In this document: positions 11,312 through 30,687 of the stretch, piece by piece
Layout of the letters: the number at the start of each line of letters is the position of its first letter
Position numbering within the stretch: position 1 is the first letter of the stretch
Source: a virus
IMG/VR virus record: IMGVR_UViG_3300032223_001186
Coordinates: 1-44,370 of that record
Reading direction: 5' to 3' (one strand)
Length of the DNA: 44,370 nucleotides
Made by a program: the position numbers and the translations under genes
The notes under the pieces: generated by a model
Seen by the model: the letters and a program-made list of their open reading frames with translations, nothing else
What the model was told of the DNA's origin: nothing
Database searches by the model: none

Positions 11312-11766
11312 CACCTCGCTCCCCGCTTCAGAACGATACTGGCACCGCTCTGGGTACACTGGCGAATCCGCTTCGTGTTGACCCAATCAACTCCACCCCG
11401 CAAACCGTCACCGGCACCGTCAATGCGATCTCCCCGGTTCTAACAACGAAGTCCAGTGGTTCCAGTCACATTACGACGAACACGAATACTCAGATCGTCG
11501 CCGCGCCTGGCGCCGGGTTTCACCTCCGCATTCATCGGCTCTGGTGTCAGAACGGGTCCGGCGGCGCTACCACGTGGTGCTACTGGGGAAACGGATCTGG
11601 AGACCTCGTAACAGGTCCGGCGTGCTCACTGGCCGCCAATCAGCCGTTCGGCATGGATATCAAAGGCGCGTGGGTTCTCAGTTCCAATACCGGGTTGTTC
11701 CTTAGCACTGCAACCACCGGCGGCGACATTGGCTGGTATGTCGAATATGAGACGGTGGCGGACTAA
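11305..11766 (+). CDS. Beta-rich structural protein of the spike cassette
   Basis: A 153-residue protein starting at GTG 11305, supported by a strong ribosome-binding site (AAGGAG, about 8 nt upstream) and a 7-nt overlap with the previous gene. The N-terminal 45 residues are loose and Thr/Pro-rich; the rest is Gly-, Ser- and Thr-rich beta sequence with several aromatic residues (WCQNGSGGATTWCYWGNGSG). The C-terminus GGDIGWYVEYETVAD resembles that of the minus-strand protein at 10578-10862. It probably belongs to a family of small jelly-roll-like virion surface proteins. The stop overlaps the ATG of the spike gene (TAATG). The function is inferred from context only. Confidence 0.72.
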   Translation: MLTPRSPLQNDTGTALGTLANPLRVDPINSTPQTVTGTVNAISPVLTTKSSGSSHITTNTNTQIVAAPGAGFHLRIHRLWCQNGSGGATTWCYWGNGSGDLVTGPACSLAANQPFGMDIKGAWVLSSNTGLFLSTATTGGDIGWYVEYETVAD

Positions 11767-13103
11767 TGGCGCTTTCTGCAAACACGGTTCTTGAGATTCG
11801 CACCACGGGAAGCGATACGAATGGCGGAGGCTTTGTTACCGGAGCTTCCGGTACCGACTGGAGCCAACAGAACGCCGCCCAGTATTCCGTCACTGACGGC
11901 GTGACCGCTGGAACTACTACCATCGTCAGCGCCACGGCGAATTTCGGGACGGATGTTGTCGGCAATCTGATCTACGTGCAAGGTGGCACCGGAGCCGTCG
12001 CCGCTGGCTGGTATCAGATCATCTCTCGAACCAACGCGACTACCATCGTTGTTGATCGGTCAACGGGACTTACTTCCGGAACCGGAGTCACCCTGAAGAT
12101 CGGCGGCGCGCTGGCCACCATCGGCGTCGGACTCGCACTCATGACCGTCAGCGGCATGACGATGTACGTCAAAAACACCGCCACCTATTCCATCGGCACC
12201 GGTCTGACTTGGCCCGCGGGTCCGAACTATGGTGCCGAGACCCGCATGATCGGCTACACAACAACTCGCGGCGACGGCGGCCGAGCTATTGTTAAGGCCA
12301 CGGCGGCTATCACTGGCCTGACGATAGGACAGTCGGGTTGCGGGATTGAGAACTTTGAGTTCGACGGCAACAGCACTGGGACGACGGGAATCCTTGTCTC
12401 AGCGGCCTATATGCCGTCCGTTTACAACGTCTGGGCTCACCACTGGACGGCGGAAGGAATCAACGCCACCAGCAATCTCGCTGTAATTTCACGTTGCGAA
12501 GTGAACAGCTGCGCGGGAACAAACGGAGCGCTGGCTATCGCTTCCGGCTGCACGTTGATCTTCTGCTATTCCCACGACAACACGAAGTCCGGGTTCTACA
12601 CCGCTGCAAACTCGAACGTGGACTACTGCGTATCCGCCAACAACACTGGCGCGAATTCGCACGGATTCAGCAGCCAGTACGGCACCGCTTTCATGGGTTG
12701 CGTGGCCTACAATAACGCTGGGTCCGGGTTCTTTTACGGCACCAACATCGCCGCGCCCATAACCAGGTGCATCGCGGTTAACAACGGAGGTTACGGCGTC
12801 AATTTTGGCCTGACCGGATCTCCCGTCATCCCGTGGATCAACTACAACGCCTTCTACAACAACACCAGCGGAGCGCGAAACGGGATCGGCGCGGGCGCGA
12901 ACGACGTCACCCTGACCGGCGTTCCGTTCACGAACGCAGCGGGTGGCGATTACAGCCTCAACAACACCGCCGGACAAGGTGCGGCATGTCGATCTGTTGG
13001 GTTCCCTGGAACCGCAATCTATGGCACCGGATACGCCGACATCGGACCATTGCGACATCAGGACCCTTCCGCCAGCACCAACATATTCCCGATCTTCGAT
13101 TAG
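11766..13103 (+). CDS. Beta-helix tailspike-like protein
   Basis: A 445-residue protein whose middle (about residues 180-350) shows successive short turns with Asn/Gly-rich ends, for example GIENFEFDGNSTGTTGILVS, YSHDNTKSGFYTA and CVAYNNAGSGFFYG. This is typical of right-handed parallel beta-helices of the pectate-lyase or NosD type, which many phage tailspikes use to bind or cut surface polysaccharide. No catalytic residues can be assigned by eye. The N-terminal part could be an attachment domain. The gene ends the plus-strand cassette and overlaps the convergent gp10-like gene by 3-4 nt. It could be a spike, a depolymerase, or a host-expressed surface protein. Confidence 0.78.
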   Translation: MALSANTVLEIRTTGSDTNGGGFVTGASGTDWSQQNAAQYSVTDGVTAGTTTIVSATANFGTDVVGNLIYVQGGTGAVAAGWYQIISRTNATTIVVDRSTGLTSGTGVTLKIGGALATIGVGLALMTVSGMTMYVKNTATYSIGTGLTWPAGPNYGAETRMIGYTTTRGDGGRAIVKATAAITGLTIGQSGCGIENFEFDGNSTGTTGILVSAAYMPSVYNVWAHHWTAEGINATSNLAVISRCEVNSCAGTNGALAIASGCTLIFCYSHDNTKSGFYTAANSNVDYCVSANNTGANSHGFSSQYGTAFMGCVAYNNAGSGFFYGTNIAAPITRCIAVNNGGYGVNFGLTGSPVIPWINYNAFYNNTSGARNGIGAGANDVTLTGVPFTNAAGGDYSLNNTAGQGAACRSVGFPGTAIYGTGYADIGPLRHQDPSASTNIFPIFD

Positions 13104-16580: not shown

Positions 16581-16840
16581 TTGCCTTGCTCCTTTTCAGG
16601 GTTTTTAGTGACCAGAAATACAGATTTCCCATCAGGCCCGATACGCTCTCCAACGCGGTCATTGTTCGCCGTCAGGTCTTGGAATGCGTCGAAGACTGCG
16701 CCGCCCCATACGTTCACTACCTTCGGTGCGGGCCAGTGTCGTACGAGCTTGAGAATGCCGACGCCACCACCAAGCCCAAGCGTTTTGATGATGGTGTCAA
16801 CGTGCCCCATCAACCAGGAGCTTGCATCGGACCATGTCAC
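16577..16840 (-). CDS. Small protein of the lysis operon
   Basis: An 87-residue protein lying between endolysin and the XhlA-like gene, overlapped by 4 nt at both ends. It has a mildly hydrophobic N-terminal region (MGHVDTIIKTLGLGGGVGIL) that may associate with the membrane, and a polar C-terminal half ending in lysines and glutamates. A membrane-associated lysis role is likely from context; the family is not recognised. Confidence 0.62.
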   Translation of the reverse strand: MTWSDASSWLMGHVDTIIKTLGLGGGVGILKLVRHWPAPKVVNVWGGAVFDAFQDLTANNDRVGERIGPDGKSVFLVTKNPEKEQGK

Positions 16841-17313
16841 GCAGATGCCTCTTTCTGTATGGCGTCCGAAACGTTCTGCTGCGAAGCTATCTGAAGCGCC
16901 AAATATCCGTATTGCGCCGTCGCGTAGACTTTCAGAACGTCGTTGGCGAACCTGTCAAAGTCGCCATCTATCTGGAACGCTGCCCATGCGTTAGCGTATG
17001 GTGCGCCATGCGTGATCAGCCATGCGTAATCCTTGCAAGATTCCTCCAGCGAATCGTAATCGGCAAATTTAGCGTCAATCAAAACCGTATGGCCGTCGAC
17101 AACCTCGTGAGTTCCAACCGTGCAGAACTGAGCATGCCTCGCCGCCTTTTTCATGCCAAAGTAGTTCGCGTGGCCGACTGGCTTCGCACCCCACTGGGAT
17201 TCTACGGCCCACTGCGCCACCAGCAGCTTCGCTGGCAGATTCGTTTCTAATTGCAACTTCACCGCGATTGCCGCCACCTCATCAAGTCTTTGTTGTCTCG
17301 TCTCGTTACTCAT
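16837..17313 (-). CDS. Endolysin, GH73-type N-acetylglucosaminidase
   Basis: A 158-residue protein with LLVAQWAVESQWGAKPVG followed by NYFGMKK. 'A..alESgwG.s......NlFGiK' is the signature of the glucosaminidase (FlgJ/GH73) family, with the catalytic Glu at residue 38. The later segment YDSLEESCKDYAWLI matches the 'f.s...s..dy..ll' part of these enzymes. It should cut peptidoglycan glycan strands for release of progeny. No signal peptide is seen, so export would need a holin, fitting the membrane proteins next to it. TAGTCT lies 7 nt before the ATG; an AAGGA just before ATG is too close to be a normal Shine-Dalgarno sequence. Confidence 0.9.
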   Translation of the reverse strand: MSNETRQQRLDEVAAIAVKLQLETNLPAKLLVAQWAVESQWGAKPVGHANYFGMKKAARHAQFCTVGTHEVVDGHTVLIDAKFADYDSLEESCKDYAWLITHGAPYANAWAAFQIDGDFDRFANDVLKVYATAQYGYLALQIASQQNVSDAIQKEASA

Positions 17314-17328
17314 TCCTTACAGACTACC

Positions 17329-17370
17329 AAAAAAAACGCCGCCAGCGGCTGGTGAGCCTGACTGACGGCG
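17329..17370 (-). terminator. Rho-independent terminator at the end of the glycosylation cassette
   Basis: On the minus strand CGCCGTCAG (17370-17362) can pair with CTGGCGGCG (17345-17337), followed by eight T (17336-17329). It lies between the last glycosyltransferase stop (17406) and the endolysin ATG (17313). Confidence 0.85.
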
Positions 17371-17405
17371 TATAGGAGGGTCAAACGGATGGAGTACTTT
17401 TGAGT

Positions 17406-18194
17406 CTACATCATTTCCAACTGAAGCGGACCAGCGTGCTTGCATGTGGCGTCGGACGGAACCTCTGCGATGTCTCCGAGCACCATGTGCCGGTAACCGT
17501 CCTCTGCTTCATTGTTCGGGTCCAGCTTGTTGTACCAATGGAACTTCTTCACCCGATGGTCGCGGTCATTGTAGCCGAGGTGCCAGAGCGGCGCGCCCGG
17601 TATCGGCACATGAGCCGCGTGCAGTAGTTCCTGAGGAATGCTCGAGCAGTGGAAGTTCTTTCCATTGCCGAAAGGTGTTCTCTGGAACCGGAAGTTGCGG
17701 TTCATAAGTCGGAAGACGGAAGGTCTCGCGAAGTGCCGGTACACTCCGTCCACTCGCACGGTCCGGTATCCCGGCCGATCAACCAAACTGAGATCCGAAT
17801 TCCACAGATACCGAATCGGCAACTTGAAAGCATGATGCTCTGTGTTCTGCAAGGTCGCGCGGATGTTTTCCACCCCGGCCCCATCAAGCAGTTCGTCCCC
17901 ATCGATTGCCAGCGCCCAGAACGGTGAGTTGACGTCTCCGCAGAGGTGGTTGTCGCCAACGCTATTGAGTAGCCTGGACAGCAGGTATTCCCGGTCCCGC
18001 GATTCATCAAAACCGTCGAAGTTTGAGTTGATGACGGTCACCTTCTCGCCCATCGCTGCGCACAGTTCCGGCGTTGCATCGGTCGAGTGATCGTCCAGAA
18101 TGAAGATGCGTTCGCAGAGCGGCAATGCAGCTTCGATAACGGCACGAATCCACCGGCCTTCGTTCCGAATCCTTAACATCCCGAATACGGTCAT
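17406..18194 (-). CDS. GT2-type glycosyltransferase D (last gene of the cassette)
   Basis: A 262-residue protein with a GT-A fold start (VFGMLRIRNEGRWIRAVIEA), then RIFILDDHSTDATPELCA, which is the 'vDDgStD.T' nucleotide-binding motif, and a metal-binding DXD-like motif in ALAIDGDELL. The C-terminal part contains WHLGYNDRDHRVKKFHWYNK. This is a family 2 glycosyltransferase, which moves a sugar from a nucleotide donor to an acceptor. It has no transmembrane segment. It begins inside the stop of the Cys-rich gene (ATGA) and ends just before the terminator. Acceptor and donor are unknown. Confidence 0.85.
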   Translation of the reverse strand: MTVFGMLRIRNEGRWIRAVIEAALPLCERIFILDDHSTDATPELCAAMGEKVTVINSNFDGFDESRDREYLLSRLLNSVGDNHLCGDVNSPFWALAIDGDELLDGAGVENIRATLQNTEHHAFKLPIRYLWNSDLSLVDRPGYRTVRVDGVYRHFARPSVFRLMNRNFRFQRTPFGNGKNFHCSSIPQELLHAAHVPIPGAPLWHLGYNDRDHRVKKFHWYNKLDPNNEAEDGYRHMVLGDIAEVPSDATCKHAGPLQLEMM

Positions 18195-18421
18195 TGTTTC
18201 GCCTTTCCCTGTAACGGGTTAATTTCTTTCGTAGCCTTCGGTTCAGCTGGGTCAAACTCATCCTGCTTCGACAACACCAGATGCGAACACGGGCAGCGGT
18301 TCACCCGGCAGCATCCGCCGCTGTCGTGGTCGCTCACAGGATGGCCGCACGTTACCGGCTTCGGTTCGCCTTCGGCCTGCGGTTCCATTGTGATACTGAC
18401 GCAGATTCTCGTGTGTGGCAT
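18191..18421 (-). CDS. Small Cys/His-rich protein in the glycosylation cassette
   Basis: A 76-residue protein with the cluster CGHPVSDHDSGGCC followed by CPCSHLVL, giving several cysteines and histidines that could bind one or two zinc ions. The ends are polar and charged. It overlaps both neighbouring glycosyltransferase genes (TGATG and ATGA). It may be an accessory protein for the enzymes or a regulator. The family is not recognised. Confidence 0.65.
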   Translation of the reverse strand: MPHTRICVSITMEPQAEGEPKPVTCGHPVSDHDSGGCCRVNRCPCSHLVLSKQDEFDPAEPKATKEINPLQGKAKQ

Positions 18422-19290
18422 CAGTACACTCTCCCTCTGTAGAATCCCGAGTACTTTGGCACCTTAATCAGGTCGTACTCGCGCCCTTCAATGTTCACTA
18501 CTTCCGGCGCTGCGTTGAGGTTCGGCAGCATCTGCTTCCACCGTTCCTCCAGATACAGCGCGTTCGGCGGCCAATCGTCCCACCGCGTCACGTTTACGCT
18601 GTGGTAGTTGACCAACTTTCCGCAGAAGTAGCGATTCCATTTGTCCACGAACTCCCGCACGCCGCGGTTGATGCGTTCCATCGCCGCAGGATCGTTCGTG
18701 GCCGTCGCGTGATGGCTCACCGATACCGATGGCACCGCCGCGCACTTCCAGCCCGCCATACGCACCCGCATCGCATAGTCACACTCGTTCTGGTGGCCGA
18801 TCTGGTCGTCGAACTTCCCGGTCTCCACCATGCAAAGTCGGTTGATGATCCACGCGAAGCCAGCTGCCCACATTACTTCGGTGTATGGTCCCCGGTCGAT
18901 AGGCGCCGCCCCGCCATTCGGGTGAACCATGCCGATCTCATGGAACCGGTCCAGATACCCGCAGAGCGTTTCGTCCCACCCGACCGTATTGATCGTGATG
19001 TCATTGTCCAGGTATGCGATATACTCCGTTTCCGCCAGCGTGAACAGCACATTCACCGCACCTGAGTATGATTCCTGCGTTGGGTTTCGGTCCACCAGCA
19101 CGAAGCGATTGTCCACCGCTGCGAACTCCCTCGCTACCAGATTGGCTTCGCAATTCTCCGGCGATTCGTTGCCGCTCATGAGGATGAAGCATCGCCACGC
19201 CGTAGTGGAGTTCTGCTGGATACTCGCCAGCGTGCCGCGCAAGCATGACGGGTTCTTGTAGCTGGCTACTCCGATATCAAGACGTCTCAC
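18421..19290 (-). CDS. GT2-type glycosyltransferase C
   Basis: A 289-residue protein, taken from GTG 19290 (VRRLDIGVASYKN); the frame is open upstream to 19374, but that part lies inside the cupin gene and lacks the fold. The GT-A start DIGVASYKNPSCLRGTLASI is followed by the metal-binding motif IAYLDNDITI and a later VEHH-type segment in PSVSVSHHATATND. The C-terminal 60 residues carry YLEERWKQMLPNL. It is a family 2 glycosyltransferase of rhamnosyl/galactosyl type by general look, but the donor cannot be assigned. It overlaps the cupin gene by 14 nt and the Cys-rich gene by one base. Confidence 0.83.
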   Translation of the reverse strand: MRRLDIGVASYKNPSCLRGTLASIQQNSTTAWRCFILMSGNESPENCEANLVAREFAAVDNRFVLVDRNPTQESYSGAVNVLFTLAETEYIAYLDNDITINTVGWDETLCGYLDRFHEIGMVHPNGGAAPIDRGPYTEVMWAAGFAWIINRLCMVETGKFDDQIGHQNECDYAMRVRMAGWKCAAVPSVSVSHHATATNDPAAMERINRGVREFVDKWNRYFCGKLVNYHSVNVTRWDDWPPNALYLEERWKQMLPNLNAAPEVVNIEGREYDLIKVPKYSGFYRGRVY

Positions 19291-19747
19291 GTTTGAACCT
19301 CGCAATCGGCTTCGCTGTCGGAACCATCGTGTAATCGCATGCAAATTTCCAGTCTGGCGGGTCGCTCCACACATCCACCGGCCACTCGTCCGGCTTATTC
19401 TTCGACCATGACGGGTTCGGCATGTTCAGGACCAGAGCTTCTTCGTTGCCGATGTTGTACAAAGCGGCCGGCGTCCCGCACGGCACAAAGCAGTACTCGC
19501 CGCCCGGTTCGATGATTTTGTCGATGATGTCGCCTTCGTAGTTCTTCCGCACCAGAACGCGCCCAGTAAGACAGAAGAACACGCCGCGCCGCTCCTTGTG
19601 CAGATGCGGCCCCTTGCGCGTCCCCGGCGCTATGGCGGTCACGTAGACCTGCCCCGGCCGCAATCCCGGCTCCGAGAGTTCGGACCAGACCGGCAGAACC
19701 CATCCATTCGGCTTCCCGTCGCTGTCAAATGTCGCGATCTTAGGCAT
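19277..19747 (-). CDS. Cupin sugar isomerase/epimerase-like protein
   Basis: A 156-residue protein with a single cupin domain. The conserved run GPHLHKERRGVFFCLTG gives the first cupin motif (HxH-like with a Glu), and IEPGGEYCFVPCGTPAALYN the second ('PG..h.ip.gvph.~yn'). The pattern and the charged 'LHkk.~.~f' segment resemble dTDP-sugar isomerases/epimerases of the WxcM/FdtA/RmlC group. It probably converts a nucleotide-sugar intermediate for use by the neighbouring glycosyltransferases. The start overlaps the preceding microprotein gene by 8 nt. The exact reaction cannot be told. Confidence 0.75.
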   Translation of the reverse strand: MPKIATFDSDGKPNGWVLPVWSELSEPGLRPGQVYVTAIAPGTRKGPHLHKERRGVFFCLTGRVLVRKNYEGDIIDKIIEPGGEYCFVPCGTPAALYNIGNEEALVLNMPNPSWSKNKPDEWPVDVWSDPPDWKFACDYTMVPTAKPIARFKRETS

Positions 19748-19835
19748 TCTTCGCCGCCTTTCGTTCTGCTTTCATCGCCTTTACCTTCTCCCAGTAGCGG
19801 TCCATCAGGTCGCCCAATGTCGTTGGTCGTTTCAT
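19740..19835 (-). CDS. 31-residue basic microprotein
   Basis: MKRPTTLGDLMDRYWEKV and a further 13 residues rich in Lys, Ala and Glu. It is predicted helical, basic and soluble. Its ATG overlaps the stop of the 23-residue membrane peptide (ATGA), and its TAA lies 8 nt inside the cupin gene. The unbroken chain of overlaps is the main support for translation. The function is unknown. Confidence 0.5.
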   Translation of the reverse strand: MKRPTTLGDLMDRYWEKVKAMKAERKAAKNA

Positions 19836-19903
19836 TCCTCGATATACCCCTTCCAAATCAAATACATGACCAACATGGCGAATAGTGCCACTATCGTGCT
19901 CAC
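19832..19903 (-). CDS. 23-residue single-span membrane microprotein
   Basis: GTG start at 19903, overlapping the stop of the reductase-methyltransferase gene (GTGA). The peptide reads VSTIVALFAMLVMYLIWKG and ends YIEE. It is almost entirely one transmembrane helix. Its TGA overlaps the ATG of the next gene (ATGA). Overlapping junctions on both sides and the clean hydrophobic sequence argue that it is real. The function is unknown. Confidence 0.5.
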   Translation of the reverse strand: MSTIVALFAMLVMYLIWKGYIEE

Positions 19904-21396
19904 ATCGGCCTCCGATACCAGTTGCTGCTGATCTGTTCGAAGCCCACCGCCGCCAGCAGCGGGTCCCAGTCGCGTTCAAAGCGATCATTTACCGCGAGGT
20001 GCATCGGAATACTGCCATCCGGCCCGGAACCGCACGCGAAGGCGTTCTGAGCGCAGAATAGGCCGCCGGGTTTCAGTGCTGCGAAGATGGCGTTAACCCA
20101 GTCTTCTACGTTCGGCACGTGCTCCAGAAAGTCGAGAGAGCAGATGGCGTCGTAGTTGTGGCCTGTGGGGAACGTCCAGCCGTAGCTCAGATCGGTTTGC
20201 AGTTTATTGCCGGTTTTCCGCCAATGCCGAAACGCTGCGTATTCTGCCGTTCGGCTTCCTGACAAATCGTGATACCACGGCTCCATAAGAGGCGATTCGG
20301 AAAGGGCCAGTGTGAGATCCCCGATGCCGTCTCCGAGAGCCAGAACGCGAGAGCATCCCGGTTCAGATGTCAGCCGGTCTACAATCCCCTTGCACATGCC
20401 GGTGTAGTTGAAGCCGGGATCATCGTGGTACGCCGATAGCTCCCAGATGTAGGCTTCCGTGGTCCGGTACCAGTTCAGCAACTCCTCGTCTCCCTGCGGA
20501 TTCGCCCGCCGGAAGTCTTCGGCTACCGCGTTATGCAGCGCGCCGAATCCCTCGCTCAATTTACCCTTCGCCTGGTCCAGCGTGATTCCGAAGAATAACG
20601 CCAGTTCGATTGCTCTGTCTTCCATCTTTGCCCTTTCTATGATCTGGTGAATCTGGTTTAGCGATCGCAGGTGCGATGATTCCTTGTACGTAGTGTCTTT
20701 GGCCCGTCGTGCCAGTCCAGGAAAATCGTCGTGGGAGCACGCTGTGACGTCCGGGTTCACCATCCGGGCGATATCGTAACGCGTTGTGCGAATCGGTTCA
20801 CCCAGTTGCCGGATCTCCCCCGACTTAGCCATCAGCACGGCATCCCAGAGAAGCTCCGCAGCGTCCCATGCGAACAATGGACTGAAGTACCGATCTGCTA
20901 CTTGTGGCGACTGGCCTTCCAGCATGGCTTCCAGCGGGTTCTTGCGTCCGACATGCGGCAACGGTCGAATGCCGAGCACGAATGTCAGCCTGACCACGAT
21001 GCCGCCATTCTCCAGCACGCACACTTCCGCAGCCCGCTTCTGCCGGCCGTAGGCGTTCGGCTGGTCCATGTTGTTGCCAGGTGACTGGTAGACGGCCTGA
21101 GTGCTGACCTGAATGAATTTAACCTTGTGTTTCTGACAGTGCGCCGCCATCAACTTTGGCCATTCGGTATTCAGCATTTTTGCTTCTGCGGGATTGCGTT
21201 CGACATCGTCAACGTTCGAATTTCCCATCAAGTACACAACAGCATCGTAGTCAGCAACGACGGGCTCGGCATCCCAGTAGCCAAGCGTGATCGGGTCCGC
21301 GCTTTGCCGCATCCATATCGGTTCCACGCAGTCCGGAACACAGAGCCGCATGTGCTGTCCCACGATGCCGGACGCGCCGAGAATCAGTACCCTCAC
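19900..21396 (-). CDS. Sugar reductase/epimerase fused to a SAM methyltransferase
   Basis: A 498-residue two-domain protein. Residues 1-240 form an NAD(P)-binding extended-SDR domain starting MRVLILGASGIVGQHM (GxxGxxG), with YGRQKRAAE giving the YxxxK pair, as in RmlD-like dTDP-4-dehydrorhamnose reductases. From about residue 330 comes a class I methyltransferase domain with SRVLALGDGIGDLTL (motif I) and DAICSLDFLEHVPN (post-motif). A short helical linker separates them. One protein would thus reduce or epimerise a nucleotide sugar and methylate a sugar or related acceptor. It overlaps the genes on both sides. Fusion order and full length are clear; substrates are not. Confidence 0.85.
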   Translation of the reverse strand: MRVLILGASGIVGQHMRLCVPDCVEPIWMRQSADPITLGYWDAEPVVADYDAVVYLMGNSNVDDVERNPAEAKMLNTEWPKLMAAHCQKHKVKFIQVSTQAVYQSPGNNMDQPNAYGRQKRAAEVCVLENGGIVVRLTFVLGIRPLPHVGRKNPLEAMLEGQSPQVADRYFSPLFAWDAAELLWDAVLMAKSGEIRQLGEPIRTTRYDIARMVNPDVTACSHDDFPGLARRAKDTTYKESSHLRSLNQIHQIIERAKMEDRAIELALFFGITLDQAKGKLSEGFGALHNAVAEDFRRANPQGDEELLNWYRTTEAYIWELSAYHDDPGFNYTGMCKGIVDRLTSEPGCSRVLALGDGIGDLTLALSESPLMEPWYHDLSGSRTAEYAAFRHWRKTGNKLQTDLSYGWTFPTGHNYDAICSLDFLEHVPNVEDWVNAIFAALKPGGLFCAQNAFACGSGPDGSIPMHLAVNDRFERDWDPLLAAVGFEQISSNWYRRPM

Positions 21397-21578
21397 GAGA
21401 TGCGCCTCGCTTCATCGTTGAGCCGCCGAAACTCAGCCCGGAAATGTTCCACCGCGAACGCCAGAGCATACCACCAGTTTGCAATCATTCGGATACTGTA
21501 CACCAGTCCCGCCCGGTGGACCAGTAGCGCCGCCCCAGGCACCACCATGAACGCGCCGAACGTCAGAGCCTCGGTCAC
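21393..21578 (-). CDS. Small membrane protein
   Basis: A 61-residue protein with a hydrophobic N-terminal half (LTFGAFMVVPGAALLVHRAG, then YSIRMIANWWYALAF) that probably spans the membrane once or twice, and a charged, arginine-rich C-terminus. It overlaps the previous glycosyltransferase and the following fusion gene by 4 nt each. It might anchor or assist the glycosylation enzymes at the membrane; this is inference. Confidence 0.62.
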   Translation of the reverse strand: MTEALTFGAFMVVPGAALLVHRAGLVYSIRMIANWWYALAFAVEHFRAEFRRLNDEARRIS

Positions 21579-22297
21579 GCTTCACCTTCCCAGAGCGCCC
21601 AGTATGGTGACGTATGACGCCCGCGCCCCCAGTTGTCGGTTCCCCACTTCGCAATGAACCGGCGCAGGTTTGGGTGGAAGTCCCCGCCCGCCTCCGGTCC
21701 GCCCCGATAACTGCTGGTCAGGCTCCCGTGGTCGCAATAGCAGCCGTCGTAGATGCCGAGCTTGTATCCTGCGTTGCGGACACGAAGACAGAAGTCGTCG
21801 TCATCCATGCCGTAGTCGACGAACCGATCGTCAAGCATCCCGATTGTGTCGATAATCCGGCGCGGGATCAGAACGCACGTGAAACAGATTGTCCGCTGTT
21901 CGTCTCGCACTCCGTCCAAGTTCGCAAGTTCCGGCATCAGGTTCTGAAGCGGGTTCCCGACGTTATTGCACGCCGATCCGATAACACCGTACTGCGGTCT
22001 TTTCTTCGACTGCTCCCACATCCGGGTGAATCCCAGAGGCGTCTGAAGCATGGCGTCATCGTTCAGAAGAATCACGTCATCCTGGCCCGCCAGAGCGATA
22101 CCGAGGTTGATGTTACGCGAATAGCAGAATGGCTTCACGCCCTGCACAGAATCAGGGTGGATCTCGGTCGCCGCCGCCCAGTCTACGCCGTCGTCAATCA
22201 CGATGATTCGGCACGTCTCGCCGGCAGCCCGGACCGCACGGACGCAGGGAACCAGATTCGCCGCGTTCTTGCTGGGGATTATGACCGTGAGTCCCAT
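21575..22297 (-). CDS. GT2-type glycosyltransferase B
   Basis: A 240-residue protein starting MGLTVIIPSKNAANLVPCV, the usual opening of a GT-A family 2 enzyme, with RIIVIDDGVDWAAATE (nucleotide-binding DDG) and the metal-binding motif VILLNDDAML. Later comes FVDYGMDDDDFCLRVRNAGY, which matches the catalytic 'f..y..Dddl~lR.~~~G' acceptor-side motif of this family. ATG 22297 overlaps the pilin stop (TGATG) and is the likely start; the frame is open a little further upstream. It directly follows the Flp-type pilin gene, which may be meaningful. Confidence 0.88.
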   Translation of the reverse strand: MGLTVIIPSKNAANLVPCVRAVRAAGETCRIIVIDDGVDWAAATEIHPDSVQGVKPFCYSRNINLGIALAGQDDVILLNDDAMLQTPLGFTRMWEQSKKRPQYGVIGSACNNVGNPLQNLMPELANLDGVRDEQRTICFTCVLIPRRIIDTIGMLDDRFVDYGMDDDDFCLRVRNAGYKLGIYDGCYCDHGSLTSSYRGGPEAGGDFHPNLRRFIAKWGTDNWGRGRHTSPYWALWEGEA

Positions 22298-22539
22298 CAG
22301 CGCTTCGCCTCCTGCCATTCAATGCCGGTCAGCTTGCCCGTGATGCTCTGGTAGATTTGACTAATTGCACCCGACAGGCTTGTGACGGTCACCAGCAAAG
22401 CAAGAGCCACCGCCGCCACGATCATCGCGTACTCCACCAGATCCTGTCCGCGTTCGTCAGTCCAGAAGTTGACGCCGTTCGGAAGTTCTCCGCTCCGACG
22501 CATCGCACGATACACTCCCGCTTCCATTATCCGTTTCAT
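22297..22539 (-). CDS. Flp/Fap-type pilin-like protein
   Basis: An 80-residue protein with a 31-residue leader, then the sequence ERGQDLVEYAMIVAAVAL. Cleavage after Gly31 would leave Gln1, with Glu at position 5 and Tyr at position 6 of the mature form. Gly-x-x-x-x-Glu-Tyr followed by a hydrophobic helix is the class III (Flp) prepilin signature read by TadV/CpaA-type peptidases. About 20 hydrophobic residues follow (AMIVAAVALALLVTVTSLSG), then a short polar tail. The ATG at 22539 overlaps the methyltransferase stop (ATGA), which fixes the start. A pilin is very unusual in a phage. It could join the host's pili, act as a decoy, or be an unrelated membrane peptide that looks alike. Confidence 0.72.
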   Translation of the reverse strand: MKRIMEAGVYRAMRRSGELPNGVNFWTDERGQDLVEYAMIVAAVALALLVTVTSLSGAISQIYQSITGKLTGIEWQEAKR

Positions 22540-23096
22540 TTCACCGCCTCCATAACTGCCGTAATCTTCCACACCTTGTCGTAGGTGTCTTGGTACTCGC
22601 GATACTCCATGCTCACGAGGTTGAACTTCGCCGTGATGCCGTATGCCTTCGCCAGCCGCCCATGCGCGAACTCTCCACCCGGCCCCGCACCGAAGTACTG
22701 AAAACTGTTCCGCGTCCATGCGGTCTTGTGCGTCGGGTCCTGAATAAATCCGGCACCCTGAAGCGCGTCTGGAACTTCGATAGTCGCCCTGCCACCCGAT
22801 GCCAGTACCCGGTGCAGTTCGTTCATGAAGTGAATGCGGCCGAGCGGATGACGTCGATTATGGCCGAGCAGTGATGCTCCGCGCGAGACAACACAATCAG
22901 GACACCATGTCTTTTGGTGCTGGCAGTCTCCGATATGCTCCGCAACGTCATGAGCCCGCACTTCCAGGACGCTGGAATCCGGCCACGGCCACGGTCCTTC
23001 CAAGTCTACGATTTGGTCCACTTCCGGCCCCGGCGCGATATCGACGCCAATGAATCCGTCGATACGGCGGTCTGAACATCCGAGATTCAGTCTCAC
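22536..23096 (-). CDS. SAM-dependent methyltransferase
   Basis: A 186-residue class I methyltransferase. It starts MRLNLGCSDRRIDGFIGVD, motif I of the family ('lNLGcg......g~inVD'), then RIHFMNELHRVLASGGRA ('l.E..RVLkpGG') and IEVPDALQGAGFIQDPTHK. The last pattern ('vPd......DPtH....wt...f.yf') is common in methyltransferases of sugar or polysaccharide clusters. A CQHQKTWCPDCVV segment between the motifs could bind zinc. It overlaps both neighbours by 4 nt. The acceptor is unknown. Confidence 0.83.
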   Translation of the reverse strand: MRLNLGCSDRRIDGFIGVDIAPGPEVDQIVDLEGPWPWPDSSVLEVRAHDVAEHIGDCQHQKTWCPDCVVSRGASLLGHNRRHPLGRIHFMNELHRVLASGGRATIEVPDALQGAGFIQDPTHKTAWTRNSFQYFGAGPGGEFAHGRLAKAYGITAKFNLVSMEYREYQDTYDKVWKITAVMEAVK

Positions 23097-23362
23097 CGCA
23101 TGCTCCGTGGCTTCTCAGCCGGTCCAGCTTCGAGCGATGGCGCAACGAAAGTCGGAACTTTCATTACCGGCTCTTTGGCTATCGGCGTCAAGCGCTTATG
23201 GTCAAACCAGCGCGAATCTTCAAGTTTCTGCTCCTTCGCGCTCGGCTGTACAATGCATTGGACGCATCCGTATAGATCGAACCCGACCGACGTTACTACC
23301 CCCTCAAAACCAGTAACAGTGTCCCGAACAGGGAAACCGAGAATCTTTATGTATTCGTTCAT
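23093..23362 (-). CDS. Small beta-barrel-like protein of unknown function
   Basis: An 89-residue protein starting MNEYIKILGFPVRDTVTGFE, with GFEGVVTSVGFDLYGCVQC next. Short proteins with 'v.D.vTGfeGvvtsi.fDlyGc~q~~v.p' occur in many phages; the sequence suggests a small SH3-like or KOW-like beta barrel. The function of that family is not known to me. The start overlaps the glycosyltransferase stop (ATGA); the frame continues upstream but this ATG is best. The C-terminal third is proline-rich and polar. Confidence 0.7.
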   Translation of the reverse strand: MNEYIKILGFPVRDTVTGFEGVVTSVGFDLYGCVQCIVQPSAKEQKLEDSRWFDHKRLTPIAKEPVMKVPTFVAPSLEAGPAEKPRSMR

Positions 23363-24108
23363 CGTTCCATCACCTCTCTGCAAACCTTGTCCCAATAGGG
23401 TACCCGTGACCACTGACGCTCCGATGCTGGTAACACGTTATGGCGCGCCATCTCAATCGGGTCATATGCGCTGCTGCTGTTGCCGCTGTGTATCCGGGCG
23501 ATCATGCTGACCACATCGGCGTCAAAGATTGCCCTTGCAGAGTATTTCGCGCTGCTTACCGATTGGCAATCCAGTCCCCGAATCCACTCCGTATCTTCGC
23601 CGTGCTGCAGGTCCGGAAACGGTCGTTCTTCCCATGCCCGTCGCCAGTAACACAGGCTGGTGCCGAGCGCGTAACGCGGGTTCGGGTTGCTGTAGAGCCA
23701 AGCTCCATTGGTATCGCCGGTCACATATCCGGACCCTGCGCATATATGGCATGGCTGGCCGTCCTGATCGCAGACCGGACACGGCTCCGCGCCACGCCAG
23801 AACAGCATCTCGTTGTACCCGACGCAATCCGCGTCGATCGCCTGAAGCAATGCAACCTGCTCCACGATCCGGTTCGGGTGACTCCAGTCGTCATCATCCC
23901 AATGCACGATGATATCGGCCATTACCGCCAACTCGTTCACTTCGTTTCGCATCCGCCCGATTGTGAAATCAGGCTGAGACTCCAGCGAAATCAAATGCGT
24001 ATTGTCGTATGTTTGCCGATAGAACGACTTTTTCGCCTGTTCCTGGAACTTCTCCCGCCCCGGTGTCTTGAGCATCACCGCGCAGACTCGCGGATTATTC
24101 TCCGCCAT
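23359..24108 (-). CDS. GT2-type glycosyltransferase A with a zinc-knuckle insertion
   Basis: A 249-residue protein with the metal-binding motif IVHWDDDDWSHP near residues 67-77, characteristic of family 2 glycosyltransferases, and later LQHGEDTEWIRGLD, which matches the acceptor-side catalytic motif. Between these lies CPVCDQDGQPCHIC followed by AGSGYV, four cysteines at 110, 113, 120 and 123 in a DnaJ-like zinc-knuckle pattern. The N-terminus (VCAVMLKTPGREKFQEQAKK) is the usual first strand and helix. The insertion probably binds zinc and may help to recognise the acceptor. It overlaps the preceding microprotein by 14 nt. Confidence 0.85.
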   Translation of the reverse strand: MAENNPRVCAVMLKTPGREKFQEQAKKSFYRQTYDNTHLISLESQPDFTIGRMRNEVNELAVMADIIVHWDDDDWSHPNRIVEQVALLQAIDADCVGYNEMLFWRGAEPCPVCDQDGQPCHICAGSGYVTGDTNGAWLYSNPNPRYALGTSLCYWRRAWEERPFPDLQHGEDTEWIRGLDCQSVSSAKYSARAIFDADVVSMIARIHSGNSSSAYDPIEMARHNVLPASERQWSRVPYWDKVCREVMER

Positions 24109-24187
24109 ACAGGCACACCATGACCGGCAGATACGCCACCGCCACGCCGATTACAACGGCGCCAATTGCCAGCAGCATCGCCTTCAT
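24095..24187 (-). CDS. 30-residue membrane microprotein
   Basis: MKAMLLAIGAVVIGVAVAYL followed by PVMVCLYGGE: one transmembrane helix with a short polar tail. The ATG overlaps the previous stop (ATGA), and the stop lies 14 nt inside glycosyltransferase A. The tidy overlaps on both sides and the all-hydrophobic sequence support a translated peptide. The function is unknown. Confidence 0.55.
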   Translation of the reverse strand: MKAMLLAIGAVVIGVAVAYLPVMVCLYGGE

Positions 24188-24357
24188 TGTTCCCTCCGTG
24201 GCCATCCAAACGACCGTTTCAGCGTCTCGCGGTCGCGCTCCGCTTCCTTCCGCATCTGGCGGATATCCCACGCGATCAGTGCCGCAATAAACACCACCAT
24301 CGCCACTGCGTAGCCGATCACCGGCCACAATTCCATCACAGCCCTACGTGTTTCCAT
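24184..24357 (-). CDS. 57-residue single-span membrane protein
   Basis: The sequence starts METRRAVMELWPVIGYAVAM, has a transmembrane helix near residues 10-30 (VIGYAVAMVVFIAALIAW), and then a charged helical tail (DIRQMRKEAERDRETLKR). The layout, a short outer end with one span and a charged cytoplasmic helix, is common in small phage membrane proteins. It overlaps the RHH gene by 14 nt and the next microprotein by 4 nt. A second in-frame ATG at codon 8 is possible. The family is unknown. Confidence 0.6.
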   Translation of the reverse strand: METRRAVMELWPVIGYAVAMVVFIAALIAWDIRQMRKEAERDRETLKRSFGWPRREQ

Positions 24358-24490
24358 CGTTCCTCTCCTTTGCTGCCTGGTGAAGAATTGCCCGCGCTAC
24401 CCACGCCTTCAGCAACATGCCAGCTTTCGCCGCCATCAGCTTCGCCGCTTCGTAGACTTCGTCCTCCACCGGGACGTTAATCTGTCTCAT
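24344..24490 (-). CDS. Small RHH-type (CopG/Arc-like) regulator
   Basis: A 48-residue protein starting MRQINVPVEDEVYEAAKLMA. One beta strand (RQINVPV) followed by two helices, with 'e.~y~~ak~~A~~~g~~l~~wv~~ai', is the ribbon-helix-helix plan used by CopG/Arc/MetJ-type repressors and many antitoxins. It is the first gene of the 16-gene cassette. Its promoter holds two direct repeats of ACTGTAAGC 11 bp apart, as RHH dimers often prefer, so self-regulation is likely. No partner toxin is obvious next to it. The start is 7 nt after a TAAGCT hexamer. Confidence 0.7.
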   Translation of the reverse strand: MRQINVPVEDEVYEAAKLMAAKAGMLLKAWVARAILHQAAKERNDGNT

Positions 24491-24527
24491 GGCTTATAGC
24501 TTACAGTGCGCTTACAGTCGAATGCAA
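24491..24527 (-). promoter_or_regulatory. Promoter and direct-repeat operator of the cassette
   Basis: On the minus strand: TTGCAT (24527-24522), 18-bp spacer, TAAGCT (24503-24498), 7 nt, then ATG 24490. ACTGTAAGC occurs twice, at 24518-24510 and 24507-24499, exactly 11 bp (one helical turn) apart, covering the spacer and the -10. It is a natural site for the RHH protein encoded just downstream. Confidence 0.62.
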
Positions 24528-24528
24528 G

Positions 24529-25896
24529 CTATATCGGTGATATTTCGTAAGGTCGCCCGAACTGGCGCACCTGAGTCTGTTCGTCTTCATCGATCAGAAG
24601 CTCTGTGACGGCCCAGACTAGCGCGTCCATGCGATCCGGCGAAGCCTCGTTCCCTTGTGGCGTCCAGCCGCACATCTGGTCTTCCAATTCGTCATACGTG
24701 CCGACGTGATGCACTCTGCCACGCTCGTAGAGACCAGCAACAGGCTCTGCTCGGATGTATTTTCCGCGAGACGCCCGGACGGCCCGAAAGTTCGCGTTTG
24801 GATCTTGAGCATAGATATTCGCCGCAACCAGATCCCCGCCGTTATTGACTTCGGCAACGATGCAATCCGCCCGCCGCGCATAATAGGCCGCCAGAGCGAT
24901 CCTCGCCCACCCCGCCGCCGATTGCTTGCAGGATAAATCCGCCATGATGAGCACATGCGCGGTATCGGTGAGAGCGGCAACGATGATGCCGGTCTCGTCG
25001 GACTCCGCGTTGTGTGATACTGCCGGATCAATCGCCACCACTATCCGCACCAGCCGATCCATCCGCACGTCGTTCCACTGGATGCGCGTGGCGTCGATAC
25101 CCTGCCGCGTCCAGAGGGCGCCCGGAACGTCGTCGAGTATTTCCGCATTGATCTCTTGCCGGCCGAGGCGGGTTCCGCGGTACGGGTCGATGACACTCCG
25201 GACAAACTCACCGCTCAGGTTAAGCCGGTTTTCGTCGCTGGTGCCTCGTGTGATAACCGTGCGCGGATTGGCGATGATGCTCTTGATTACCTTCGTCGGC
25301 TTCGGCGTCGTGGTGATGATCCCCTGCAGGTCCGGAGATGGCAGCCGGAAACCAAACATCACCTGATCCCAGGCTTCCTGCTCATACGCACAGGCGCAAA
25401 GCTCATCAAACCAGAACTTCGTAAATTGCTTGCCGCGGAGTCGCTCAGGCTCCGACGCCGGAACCGCTATACCAGTGGCCCCGGACTTGAATTGCAACAG
25501 CCCGCGTTGAGCGCTCCAGGTCGGCCGCTCCGATGGCGGGAACACTGACAGCACGCCAGAAGGTCCCTCTACCATCGTGTCGCGCACGTCTGACGCTGTC
25601 GGGCCAATCAGCAAAATGCGCGCGTCAGGATCGGCCGCCCATTGCCGAACTGATTCCGCCCCGACGCGAGTCTTCCCGAAGCCGCGTCCCGCCAGTAGCA
25701 GCCAGTAGAGCCAGTCTTTCCGGTCCATCGCCGCGCCCGGTGTCCCCGGCATCAACTGCGATGGCCGAGCGTGCCAGCTCCAGTCCCACTCTATTGATAG
25801 CGCGACCTCAGGCGGGATCGCTGCCAGTATCGCCGCTCTCTCTGAGTCTGGCAGTAATGCCAGCGATTCGAGTTTCGAGCGATTCCTTTGCTGCAT
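24529..25896 (-). CDS. terL: Terminase large subunit
   Basis: A 455-residue protein with ATPase and nuclease parts. The Walker A sequence LLAGRGFGKTRVGAE centres on Lys75, Walker B is KFWFDELCA with GIITTTPKP (coupling motif) after it, and the RNase-H-like nuclease has VAIDPAVS, IIVAALT and the final acid DRMDALVWA. Terminase cuts concatemeric DNA and packages it into the prohead through the portal. It lies after terS with an 89-nt overlap, a marked coupling. The coding end abuts the promoter region of the glycosylation cassette. Phylogeny of this protein would be the best clue to related phages and to the headful or cohesive-end strategy. Confidence 0.95.
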   Translation of the reverse strand: MQQRNRSKLESLALLPDSERAAILAAIPPEVALSIEWDWSWHARPSQLMPGTPGAAMDRKDWLYWLLLAGRGFGKTRVGAESVRQWAADPDARILLIGPTASDVRDTMVEGPSGVLSVFPPSERPTWSAQRGLLQFKSGATGIAVPASEPERLRGKQFTKFWFDELCACAYEQEAWDQVMFGFRLPSPDLQGIITTTPKPTKVIKSIIANPRTVITRGTSDENRLNLSGEFVRSVIDPYRGTRLGRQEINAEILDDVPGALWTRQGIDATRIQWNDVRMDRLVRIVVAIDPAVSHNAESDETGIIVAALTDTAHVLIMADLSCKQSAAGWARIALAAYYARRADCIVAEVNNGGDLVAANIYAQDPNANFRAVRASRGKYIRAEPVAGLYERGRVHHVGTYDELEDQMCGWTPQGNEASPDRMDALVWAVTELLIDEDEQTQVRQFGRPYEISPI

Positions 25897-27268: not shown

Positions 27269-29295
27269 TCTTCCCCGTTCACCGCGACGGCATCCGCTGG
27301 ATCGTCACAATCCCGTATCCTCAGAGAAACATCGCGAAGGATGCGGGATTTCGCTGGTGCCCACAGAATCGGCACTGGTACACCACCCGCGAAGACGTGG
27401 CGAAACTGCTTATGGACCCTGCCGCTGCCGAGGCAAAGCGTGACGAATTCGCCCGGATCGGTGCCGAGCGGAAAGCACTGATTGAGGAATCCCGCGCCGC
27501 CTCTGTCGATATTGAACTACCGGCCCCGCATGGCCTGGAGTACCTGCCTTTCCAGCGTGCCGGTATCGCTACCGCACTGAAGCGCGGAAACGTCCTTTTT
27601 GGCGACGATATGGGATTAGGAAAAACTATCCAGGTGATAGGTATGATCAACGCCCGGGAGGATGTTCGTCGAGTCCTGATCGTCTGCCCCGCGACACTGA
27701 AGCAGAACTGGCAGCGTGAACTGAACAAATGGCTGGTACGGAAGTTCCGCATCGGGATTGCCGAGGGTCAGAAGTGGCCCGGTGGATACGCCGATATCAC
27801 GATCATCAACTTCGACATCCTCGAAAAGCATGCTTATCACGTGCAAGGCGAGGTGTGGGATCTGGTAGCTATTGATGAGGCTCACTACCTGAAGAACCGA
27901 GACGCGAAACGAACCCGCGCCGTTTTCGGCGTTGACTCCTACACTGCGAAGCGGAAAGACATACCGGAGTCTCCCGGCGTCCGCGGCCGCCTGCAGATCG
28001 GCATGACCGGCACCCCGATACCTAACCGCCCGAGCGAGGGTTTCGGGCTGTTTCACTGGCTGGCCCCGAATCACGAGTGTTTCAAGAGCTTCTACGTCTA
28101 CGCGAAAAAGTTTACCGGGAGTTTCGCTTACCCGGGCGCGGGATACGACCAGAACGGCGCGACAAACTTGGACGAATTGCAGGCTGCGCTCCGAGGGTCG
28201 ATCATGATCCGGCGAACAAAAGAGCAGGTCTTGAAGGAATTGCCGGCGAAACGTCGCGTGGTTATTGAACTTGAGGCGGAATCGGCGTCTGACGCGGTCG
28301 AAGACGAACGAGAGGCGGCAGAGTCCCACGAGGAAGAACTCGACCGCCTACGCGCCGCTGTGGAGCTTGCAAAGGCGTCTTCAGAGTCGGCGTACAACGA
28401 CGCAGTAGCGGCGCTGAAAAAAGGCGCATCGGTTGCGTTCACCGAGATGTCCCGACTTCGGCACGAAACAGCGATGGCGACACTGCCGCACGCGGTTGAG
28501 CATGTCCTGACCGCGCTGCGTGCTGACGACTCGCACAAGGTCGTCGTGTTCTGCCATCACGGAGACGTCGCCGTTGGAATGCTGTCAGCACTGGCTGAGG
28601 CTGGTATCGGCACCGCGTCAATCACACAGAAGACGCCGATCATGGATCGTCAGGCAGAATCAGATCGATTCCAGACGGACCCGGACTGTCGTGTGTTCGT
28701 CGGAGGAATCCAGTCTGCCGGTGTCGGTATCACCCTCACGGCCGCGTGGCATGTCGTGTTCGTAGAACTGGATTGGGTGCCCGGAAACATGAGCCAAGCG
28801 GAAGACCGGTGCAACCGGATCGGCCAGCGGAACTCCGTGCTCTGTGAGCATCTGGTGATTCAGGGCTCAATCGCGGCAACAATGGCGAAACGGCTGGTGG
28901 CGAAGCAGAACGTCATTGATTCAGCACTGGACTGTGAACACCCGGAACGTCTGACGGTCGAACAGCGGGAGATGATGGACGCTCCGATAGTCCCCGGAAG
29001 GTCGGAAGCTGCAACGCAGGACACACCGCGGACGAAGTACGCCAAGATCGCGGAGACGCTGACACCGGCCCAGATCGCCGCCGTTCACCAGGCCTTGCGG
29101 ATGCTGGCGGATTTCGACTGCGACCATGCGAAGGTTTTGAACGGTATCGGGTTTAGCCGGATCGACGGCATGATCGGACATTCGCTGGCCGATTGCGGCC
29201 GCCTCACGCCGAAACAGGCTGCGTTGGGTCAGACACTGGTGCGGAAGTACCGGAAGCAGGTTCCAGAGTCGCTACTGACTCAATGCGGGATATGA
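27265..29295 (+). CDS. SNF2-type DNA helicase/translocase with DUF5710-like N-terminus
   Basis: A 676-residue protein. Residues 1-45 resemble a DUF5710-type domain (IPYPQRNIAKDAGFRWCP, then WYTT). The helicase core starts with a Q-like PFQRAG, motif I LFGDDMGLGKT (Lys120), motif Ia LIVCPATLKQNW, motif II LVAIDEAHYLKN (DEAH 204-207), motif III MTGTPIPNRP, and ends with VFVGGIQSAGVGITLTAA (motif V) and QAEDRCNRIGQ (motif VI). A long coiled-coil insertion lies between the two RecA-like lobes (about residues 340-410). SNF2-family proteins move along double-stranded DNA or strip proteins off it. In phages they are found among replication and recombination genes. A short C-terminal helical domain follows. 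It is the last gene of the early plus unit. Confidence 0.92.
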   Translation: MIFPVHRDGIRWIVTIPYPQRNIAKDAGFRWCPQNRHWYTTREDVAKLLMDPAAAEAKRDEFARIGAERKALIEESRAASVDIELPAPHGLEYLPFQRAGIATALKRGNVLFGDDMGLGKTIQVIGMINAREDVRRVLIVCPATLKQNWQRELNKWLVRKFRIGIAEGQKWPGGYADITIINFDILEKHAYHVQGEVWDLVAIDEAHYLKNRDAKRTRAVFGVDSYTAKRKDIPESPGVRGRLQIGMTGTPIPNRPSEGFGLFHWLAPNHECFKSFYVYAKKFTGSFAYPGAGYDQNGATNLDELQAALRGSIMIRRTKEQVLKELPAKRRVVIELEAESASDAVEDEREAAESHEEELDRLRAAVELAKASSESAYNDAVAALKKGASVAFTEMSRLRHETAMATLPHAVEHVLTALRADDSHKVVVFCHHGDVAVGMLSALAEAGIGTASITQKTPIMDRQAESDRFQTDPDCRVFVGGIQSAGVGITLTAAWHVVFVELDWVPGNMSQAEDRCNRIGQRNSVLCEHLVIQGSIAATMAKRLVAKQNVIDSALDCEHPERLTVEQREMMDAPIVPGRSEAATQDTPRTKYAKIAETLTPAQIAAVHQALRMLADFDCDHAKVLNGIGFSRIDGMIGHSLADCGRLTPKQAALGQTLVRKYRKQVPESLLTQCGI

Positions 29296-30687
29296 TCCAC
29301 CGGATCACCGGAACCGCCATGCTGTTGCCTAGAGCCTTGTAGCGCGGCCCATCCGCTGCTTTTTCCATCGCAGTGTAATCGTCAGGAAAACCCTGAAGTC
29401 GTTCGCATTCTCGCGGGGTGAATCGGCGCACGCCAAACGTTTGCGCGATCTGCGTCATCACGGCGCCGACACCCATCCCGCTGCGTCCCGCCGGCAACGT
29501 CGGAGCCAAGACCGGAATCACATGCCCCGCCGCTACCGCCTGATCGTTCACGCCCGACTGGCCGTGTCCTTTCGGCGTGTGCTGACTTGGCAACGCCCCA
29601 ACCACCAGCGTCTCCGTCTCGTAGTCAATCCGCCCCATGCCACCAGCATTCAGGCAGTGGGATGTTTCGACGGTGGCGACGTAACACTGCTGTTTCGCGC
29701 CCGGTTCAGCCGCCAGTGCTCCAACGATCTGGCCGTCACCGTCGAACATGCGGACCTCATCGCGAGTGTTCTGGACGAACGCCACCCCATGCTGCTTCCC
29801 GCGCTGAAGCGTGAACATCGGATCTCCCGGCTGTCCGATACCGTCAGAGCATCGCACGTCGTCGGTACTGACTCCGGTTCGTGCGCCGGGTTCAAGGATG
29901 CGGATTGGCGACATCGCCAGCATTCCCACCTGATTGCGAATCGCGCCGTCTTTCGCCCGTGCATCCATCGTGCAGGCTACGTCAACGTCTCGCCCCCCCC
30001 CAGGCCCGACCTCGAAACCGATTCCAGTGCGTTCCGCAACATCGGCGGCAGTTTTTTCCCCCGCTTCTCTGCGCGGCGGAGAATGCCGCGCGGCACGCCT
30101 TCGCACTCAAAAAGTATTTTGCGGGGATCGGACACGTTTCGAGGACATGCGACAACGAACACACGCTTGCGTCGTTGGGCCAGTCCGAAATATTGAGCAT
30201 CGAGGACACGCCAAGCGGCAGCGCGTCGGGGTCCAGACACCATGCCTGCGTTTGTCCATCCGCCGACCGGTACGATGGCTTCATCTGCTCCAACCAGCGC
30301 AGCGAGGAATGACCCGAAGGCGTTGTCTTTTGTGCTGAGAACTCCGGGGACGTTTTCCCACAAGACAGTATCAGGCTCAATTGCATCTACCACCTCCACG
30401 AATCGTAACGTCAGGTTGCCCCGCGCATCTTCGAGACTACGCCGATTTCCGGCCATTGAGAACGCTTGGCACGGTGTCCCGGCCACCAGCAAATTCAAGT
30501 GACCGAATGACCGCGCCCGGTCAATGAAATCCGTCGCCGTGATGTCCCCCAGATTGACGCTTTCCGGGTGACGGTGCGCCAGAACGCGAGATGGGAACTT
30601 CTCCACCTCCGCAGACCAAAGCCATTGCGTCCCCGGCATTGCAGTTTCAGGCGCTCCTATTCCGCTGCACATCGTTGCGCCGGTCAT
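29204..30687 (-). CDS. DNA cytosine-5 methyltransferase, frame broken at a G9 tract
   Basis: Two adjacent frames together form one C5-methyltransferase. The first (30687-29977) has motif I (ATMCSGIGAPE), motif IV with the catalytic Cys (GTPCQAFSMAG), motif VI WENVPG and motif VIII QRRKRVFVVA, and ends soon after the G run. The second carries a variable region with ETSHCLNAGGMGRIDYETE and then motifs IX-X (RFTPRECERLQGFPDDYT and KALGNSMAVPVIRWI). A -1 shift at the run (or a tract of 7 or 10 G) would give a 494-residue protein. Options are programmed slippage, a phase-variable tract, a sequencing or assembly error, or a true pseudogene. The intact protein would methylate the phage genome against host restriction. 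It is coupled to the upstream zinc-ribbon gene (ATGA). Confidence 0.85.
29993..30001 (-). other. Homopolymer of nine G in the methyltransferase gene
   Basis: The minus strand reads CTG GGG GGG GGC in the first frame. The heptamer G GGG GGG lies in phase as a possible -1 slippery site, and a change to 7 or 10 G would also join the two halves. Confidence 0.9.

Follow-up and report, generated by a model that had tools for sequence, protein, structure and literature searches.

What is a tightly packed block of glycosyltransferases, methyltransferases and very small proteins doing in the late region of a phage? The question is raised by the virus record IMGVR_UViG_3300032223_001186, the 44,370 bases of which were analysed as a whole and are here called the window. 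The block occupies the minus strand from 24490 to 17406, between terL, encoding the large terminase (24529-25896, phrog_979), and an endolysin gene (16837-17313, phrog_3513), the same place between terL and lysis assigned to it in a first-pass annotation; the portal gene (phrog_10963) comes after the endolysin. Seven enzymes of the block form a conserved module, in the order GT_a, MT, GT_b, RmlD-MT, cupin, GT_c and GT_d, where GT denotes a glycosyltransferase, MT a methyltransferase, and RmlD-MT an RmlD-like reductase fused to a further methyltransferase domain. On balance, it is probable that these enzymes, which are soluble, synthesise a methylated deoxysugar and attach it to proteins of the virion, the module being a late-region system for autonomous virion glycosylation.

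The module recurs in other phages. A protein search of viral contigs with RmlD-MT retrieved eight relatives, of which seven share 78-81% identity with it, and profile searches retrieved many more. The full seven-enzyme order is found in nine contigs of uncultivated phages (known duplicates removed), seven further contigs keep the order without only the cupin or GT_a, and in 30 contigs, most of them fragments or from large phages, GT_c is adjacent to RmlD-MT or to the MT domain of that protein; duplicate contigs were listed by hand, and these counts are approximate. Enzymes for making, methylating and transferring a sugar, which the first-pass annotation had pointed out together, are a genuine linked unit with conserved synteny, and their homologues follow one order across the nine contigs rather than being scattered and unlinked. 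The module enzymes are under purifying selection: relative to the window, GT_b, GT_c, GT_d and RmlD-MT have a ratio of nonsynonymous to synonymous substitution rates (dN/dS) of 0.07-0.14, and GT_a, MT and the cupin a higher one, 0.11-0.39. Variable small genes inserted at several junctions could speak for a chance gathering of unlinked accessory genes, but the single gene order shared by nine contigs from diverse phages, and purifying selection, refute this notion for the seven enzymes.

The module sits between terL and the portal gene in the window and in contigs L010, L061 and L062. In L006 it follows a terL of a different type and precedes the portal, its position unchanged; in close relatives the same module has a different large terminase type directly upstream (L006:5740-7203 versus window 24529-25896). 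In L015, an unrelated HK97-type phage (terL phrog_9, portal phrog_12), it lies between the genes of the major head protein (phrog_10) and a head-tail adaptor (phrog_442). The linkage of glycosyltransferases to structural genes, as expected of virion glycosylation, is found with two exceptions, L009 and L092. In L009 the module resides among replication-type genes, a location compatible with the notion that the module glycosylates, and thus hypermodifies, phage DNA. Phage glycosyltransferases often act on DNA, but the module is usually in the structural region, and the base-modifying enzymes of the thymidylate synthase family (PF00303) are absent from 11 records. We hold this explanation to be highly improbable.

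The genes of the block, with starts re-derived from comparison with relatives, and the terminator that follows them are listed below (aa, amino acids; GT2, glycosyltransferase family 2; SAM, S-adenosylmethionine; SDR, short-chain dehydrogenase/reductase; AF2, AlphaFold2; pLDDT, predicted local distance difference test).

24344-24490, minus strand: g01, 48-aa possible ribbon-helix-helix protein (PF21983 E=8e-4, below cut-off; 88-90% identical in relatives).
24184-24357, minus strand: g02, 57-aa single-span membrane microprotein (hydropathy 2.4; homologue in relatives, 38-44%).
24095-24187, minus strand: g03, 30-aa membrane microprotein (start, stop and length identical in L002, L004, L006 and L007).
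23359-24108, minus strand: GT_a, GT2-like glycosyltransferase (family profile: heparosan synthase B 2.7e-6, SpsA; phrog_8858 glycosyltransferase, weak).
23093-23362, minus strand: g05, 89-aa protein in a variable slot (phrog_37639, unknown function, 8.7e-19; absent or replaced in relatives).
22536-23096, minus strand: MT, SAM methyltransferase (phrog_6636 methyltransferase 2e-5; 60-79% in close relatives).
22297-22539, minus strand: Flp/Fap type IVb pilin, prepilin site G|QDLVEY (PF04964 34.9 bits; relatives lack it at the same junction).
21575-22297, minus strand: GT_b, GT2 glycosyltransferase (PF00535 27.4 bits).
21393-21578, minus strand: g09, 61-aa conserved small protein, weakly hydrophobic (76-88% in close relatives; dN/dS 0.06-0.13 against the window; hydropathy 1.65).
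19900-21396, minus strand: RmlD-MT, RmlD-like SDR reductase fused to a SAM methyltransferase (PF04321 7.9e-15, PF13489 1.3e-7; RmlD structures 1.7e-11; GASGIVG and YGRQK motifs).
19740-19835, minus strand: g11, 31-aa basic peptide (conserved from an internal ATG in relatives).
19277-19747, minus strand: cupin, predicted nucleotide-sugar epimerase/isomerase (AF2 pLDDT 85; Foldseek top CapF 5e-10; invariant KGPHLH motif).
18421-19290, minus strand: GT_c, GT2 glycosyltransferase (PF00535 26.8 bits; SpsA and TagF structures).
18191-18421, minus strand: g14, 76-aa Cys/His-rich small protein (65-71% in relatives).
17406-18194, minus strand: GT_d, GT2 glycosyltransferase resembling polypeptide glycosyltransferases (PF13704 32 bits; GmaR profile 7e-8; AF2 pLDDT 94; Foldseek top six SunS/ThuS).
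17332-17372, minus strand: intrinsic terminator after the block (sequence and fold).

The four GT2 enzymes counted initially are not equally well founded. GT_b, GT_c and GT_d pass the Pfam cut-off; GT_a alone falls below it, and is backed by its family profile, which matches the GT-A-fold structures of heparosan synthase B and SpsA. In the window phage GT_a carries an extra CPVCxxxxxPCHIC loop. Two SAM methyltransferase domains had been predicted, and correspond to MT and to the domain fused to the reductase; the RmlD-like reductase was also correctly recognized, RmlD-MT being a 498-aa protein the reductase part of which matches RmlD structures. The same holds for the sugar-isomerase-like cupin: an AF2 model built from 14 relatives has S. 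aureus CapF as all of its five closest solved structures in Foldseek, and the sequence match falls in the C-terminal part of CapF. An SDR with GxxGxxG and YxxxK motifs and a sugar cupin, the pair expected of a CapF/RmlD-type deoxysugar pathway, are both present here, and cupin and reductase together resemble CapF/RmlD. The AF2 model of GT_d, built from 24 relatives, has the polypeptide S-glycosyltransferases SunS and ThuS as its six best structure matches, and the best sequence match of the GT_d profile is GmaR, the N-terminal domain of which is a flagellin N-acetylglucosamine transferase (PMC9638930). Structure prediction, one of the checks proposed at first pass, has yielded folds resembling CapF and, remotely, SunS/ThuS for these two enzymes. 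Among the several single-span microproteins originally described, those at 24184-24357 and 24095-24187 hold, and the product of 21393-21578 is rather a conserved, weakly hydrophobic protein. The presumed ribbon-helix-helix regulator, g01, remains a weak match, though the gene is well conserved.

Gene content, synteny, position, selection, mosaic identities and fold resemblance are what the analysis shows; a plausible scenario can be drawn from them, in which substrates, acceptor, order of transfer and benefit are inferred. The cupin would epimerise or isomerise a host-supplied nucleoside diphosphate-4-keto-6-deoxyhexose, the RmlD-like domain would reduce the resulting sugar, and the fused methyltransferase and the separate MT would methylate it. 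In the cytoplasm, GT_d may begin the glycan on a phage structural protein, and GT_a, GT_b and GT_c may extend it. The small proteins might serve to regulate the enzymes or to organise them.

The main rival, a live one that we regard as less likely, is that the enzymes modify a host surface polysaccharide, acting at the cytoplasmic face on a lipid-linked or lipid A-core intermediate, so that receptors are altered and other phages excluded. Similarity to capsule and rhamnose enzymes is seen in the cupin and the reductase, and small membrane proteins reside within the operon. Some carriers have integrases: Phage_integrase matches occur in the records of L015, L062 and L009, and the module of L092 is close to an integrase. 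Yet the window and the records of L003 and L006 yielded no integrase, and a GtrA-type flippase (PF04138) is absent from 11 records, in a search which detects 7 of 14 controls. A hydropathy scan found none of the membrane spans of GtrB-type enzymes in the four transferases, and no clear span in any of the enzymes, except for one hydrophobic stretch inside the reductase fold. Virion proteins are favoured as acceptors because of the missing flippase and transferase spans, the late structural position of the module and the likeness of GT_d to polypeptide transferases.

Several points weigh against virion glycosylation. Glycan and acceptor have not been observed. The likeness of GT_d to SunS and GmaR is remote, as identity to SunS/ThuS is 13-15%, and the template modelling score (TM-score) to the query 0.47-0.54. 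Neither a sugar dehydratase nor a nucleotidyltransferase was seen in the block, and the precursor would therefore have to come from the host. The membrane microproteins in the operon are unexplained. Finally, the module of L009 is placed among replication-type genes, and its location near an integrase in L092, an Acidobacteria metagenome-assembled genome, is also typical of lysogenic conversion genes.

The first-pass annotation also considered the Flp-type pilin part of the system, and suggested that the glycan might be changed on pili. The Flp/Fap domain in the operon is genuine (its PF04964 score exceeds the cut-off of 32.2 bits) and carries a prepilin cleavage site, GQDLVEY, and flagellins are known targets of GT2 enzymes of the cytoplasm, GmaR for example; glycosylation and methylation of the co-encoded pilin, or of host Tad pili, might be envisaged. 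The pilin gene, however, is inserted exactly between MT and GT_b, and in L002, L003, L004, L006, L007 and L008, which keep the whole module, the stop of MT lies right against the start of GT_b or overlaps it. The arrangement of L005 is identical to that of L006, bringing to seven the close relatives lacking the pilin at this junction. In the whole records of 27 relatives only one Flp match was found, weak (27.3 bits) and located elsewhere, after the endolysin. No Tad assembly ATPase or platform genes were found among the window proteins scanned, which cover part of the open reading frames (ORFs), and tblastn found no Flp in GenBank phages. Because close relatives lack the pilin and the one Flp match among relatives is weak and elsewhere, the pilin is, judging from these comparisons, an accessory insertion rather than part of the module. 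The co-occurrence envisaged at first pass is therefore split: the enzymes are linked to the RmlD-MT fusion, the pilin is not. Since conservation of the module does not extend to the pilin, pilus glycosylation is not what the module is conserved for, and the proposal is very unlikely to hold. The original interpretation is partly supported: of the three targets that it listed, the virion has the best support, the host surface comes second and the pilus last.

Flp-like proteins occur in other viral settings. L061:13734-14036 encodes one (GQDLVEYALIV) in which a further hydrophobic stretch precedes the prepilin site; its gene comes directly after one for an endolysin and ahead of one for a small possible membrane protein, and this suggests that some phage Flp proteins have a lysis or membrane role. 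Two peptide patterns identified Flp-type pilin ORFs in dozens of viral-class contigs (L084, L085, L087, L088, L089, L091, L103-L149), the one in L088 having tail genes around it (major tail protein phrog_158). Of the others, many may belong to host flanks of prophages, and contexts differ; a common function of Flp as a general phage feature was not inferred.

Parts of the module have a mosaic structure. The L002 and L007 versions of RmlD-MT and of the first genes share 92-95% identity; for the cupin the figure falls to 58-66%, and for the second half of MT to 62-68%. The window cupin is 83-84% identical to that of L002, and 57-64% to that of L007. Similarly, L002 and L004 are 67-72% identical over the reductase region 21423-20983, and about 90% in its surroundings. 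From these identities, the cupin, the variable region of the reductase and half of MT look as if swapped as alleles between close relatives. Such exchange would change the sugar, not its attachment, the transferases staying conserved. As a tentative extension, otherwise near-identical phages might keep changing their coat chemistry, exchanging sugar-defining enzymes by recombination while transferases remain fixed, in a virion counterpart of antigenic variation.

The block, described initially as 16 genes with all 15 junctions overlapping, is indeed an overlapping block, of 15 genes with relative-supported starts, with overlaps of 1, 4, 8 or 14 nucleotides at 13 of 14 junctions. Translational coupling is proposed. 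The sole exception is a 64-nucleotide gap: the gene ending at 19740 (g11) begins at 19835, 64 nucleotides past the reductase stop, not 89 nucleotides inside the reductase. ORF 18007-18261 (84 aa) was rejected as a gene, being out-of-frame GT_d sequence, because an HNH-endonuclease insertion in L003 and L006 deletes its 5' part and leaves GT_d intact. The inserted gene (phrog_59) lies between g14 and GT_d (L003:4831-5364, L006:13139-13672). The block has its own terminator, as initially proposed: the strong hairpin at 17332-17372 has the stem ACGCCGTCAG...CTGGCGGCGT followed by T8, is supported by sequence and folding, and was missed by a consensus terminator scan. The promoter proposed alongside did not hold, as no sigma-70 promoter was found near 24490 (3 matches in the region, versus 5.5 expected by chance). 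An 8-bp inverted repeat, TATAGCTT...AAGCTATA with repeated ACTGTAAGC, lies at 24496-24535 between terL and g01; relatives have unrelated sequence there, and it was rejected as an operator. Elsewhere in the window, a C5 cytosine DNA methylase (29204-30687) spreads over the overlapping ORFs 29977-30687 and 29204-30106, which match consecutive parts of phrog_116, and may be frameshifted or split. A 445-aa beta-helix-like protein is encoded on the plus strand (11766-13103) among minus-strand structural genes.

In large phage contigs (L022-L053, up to 216 kilobases) an MT domain, often with an RmlD domain, is directly followed by GT_c, and in some of them by another methyltransferase-like gene and a GT17-like gene. 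RmlD-MT, GT_c, GT_d and the large-phage MT domain gave no tblastn match at 1e-5 in 50,697 GenBank phages; GT_b and MT gave weak matches only, and there was no match at the DNA level. In bacterial genomes, a limited, pattern-based sampling found nothing with the whole RmlD-MT fusion and one Acidobacteria contig (L092) with the MT domain; a similar scan of 396 Acidobacteriota genomes gave no other strong match to the module, which does not prove absence from bacteria.

Known systems share single features with the module. Phage-borne gtrABC seroconversion cassettes modify glycans too, but include the GtrA flippase and the membrane-spanning GtrB-type transferase that are missing here. CapF (Cap5F), from Staphylococcus aureus, is a sugar enzyme joining SDR and cupin; reductase and cupin are used together in both cases, but CapF is one fused capsule-pathway protein, whereas here the genes are separate and the SDR is fused to a methyltransferase. 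SunS, ThuS and GmaR are, like GT_d, GT-A-fold enzymes, and act on polypeptides, but no bacteriocin peptide or flagellin was identified here. Few cultured phages have been shown to glycosylate their virions. Mycobacteriophage virion glycosylation (Che8, Corndog, Myrna; Freeman et al. 2023, as cited in PMC12619734 and PMC12363180) has phage-encoded transferases proposed to act on capsid and tail proteins; the module differs in being a seven-enzyme set with sugar-making and methylating enzymes in uncultivated phages, and its RmlD-MT, GT_c and GT_d, as noted, match no GenBank phage. The chlorovirus PBCV-1 carries methylated deoxyhexoses on its capsid, and for the autonomous glycosylation of PBCV-1 and Mimivirus the viruses encode nucleotide-sugar enzymes, with a methyltransferase domain present as a fusion in a64r (PMC4691112); those are eukaryotic giant viruses, and the fusion joins a transferase, not a reductase, to the methyltransferase. 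Mycobacteriophage and chlorovirus capsid glycosylation are the nearest kinds, and new here is a longer module of uncultured phages with its own sugar-making enzymes.

The module, equipped with sugar-making and methylating enzymes, is common in environmental phages but is not to be seen in the phage genomes of GenBank; RmlD-MT and GT_d, both conserved, provide a key to search for it. If the reading is true, environmental phages diversify their sugar coat, which could affect adsorption, recognition by defence systems and particle stability.

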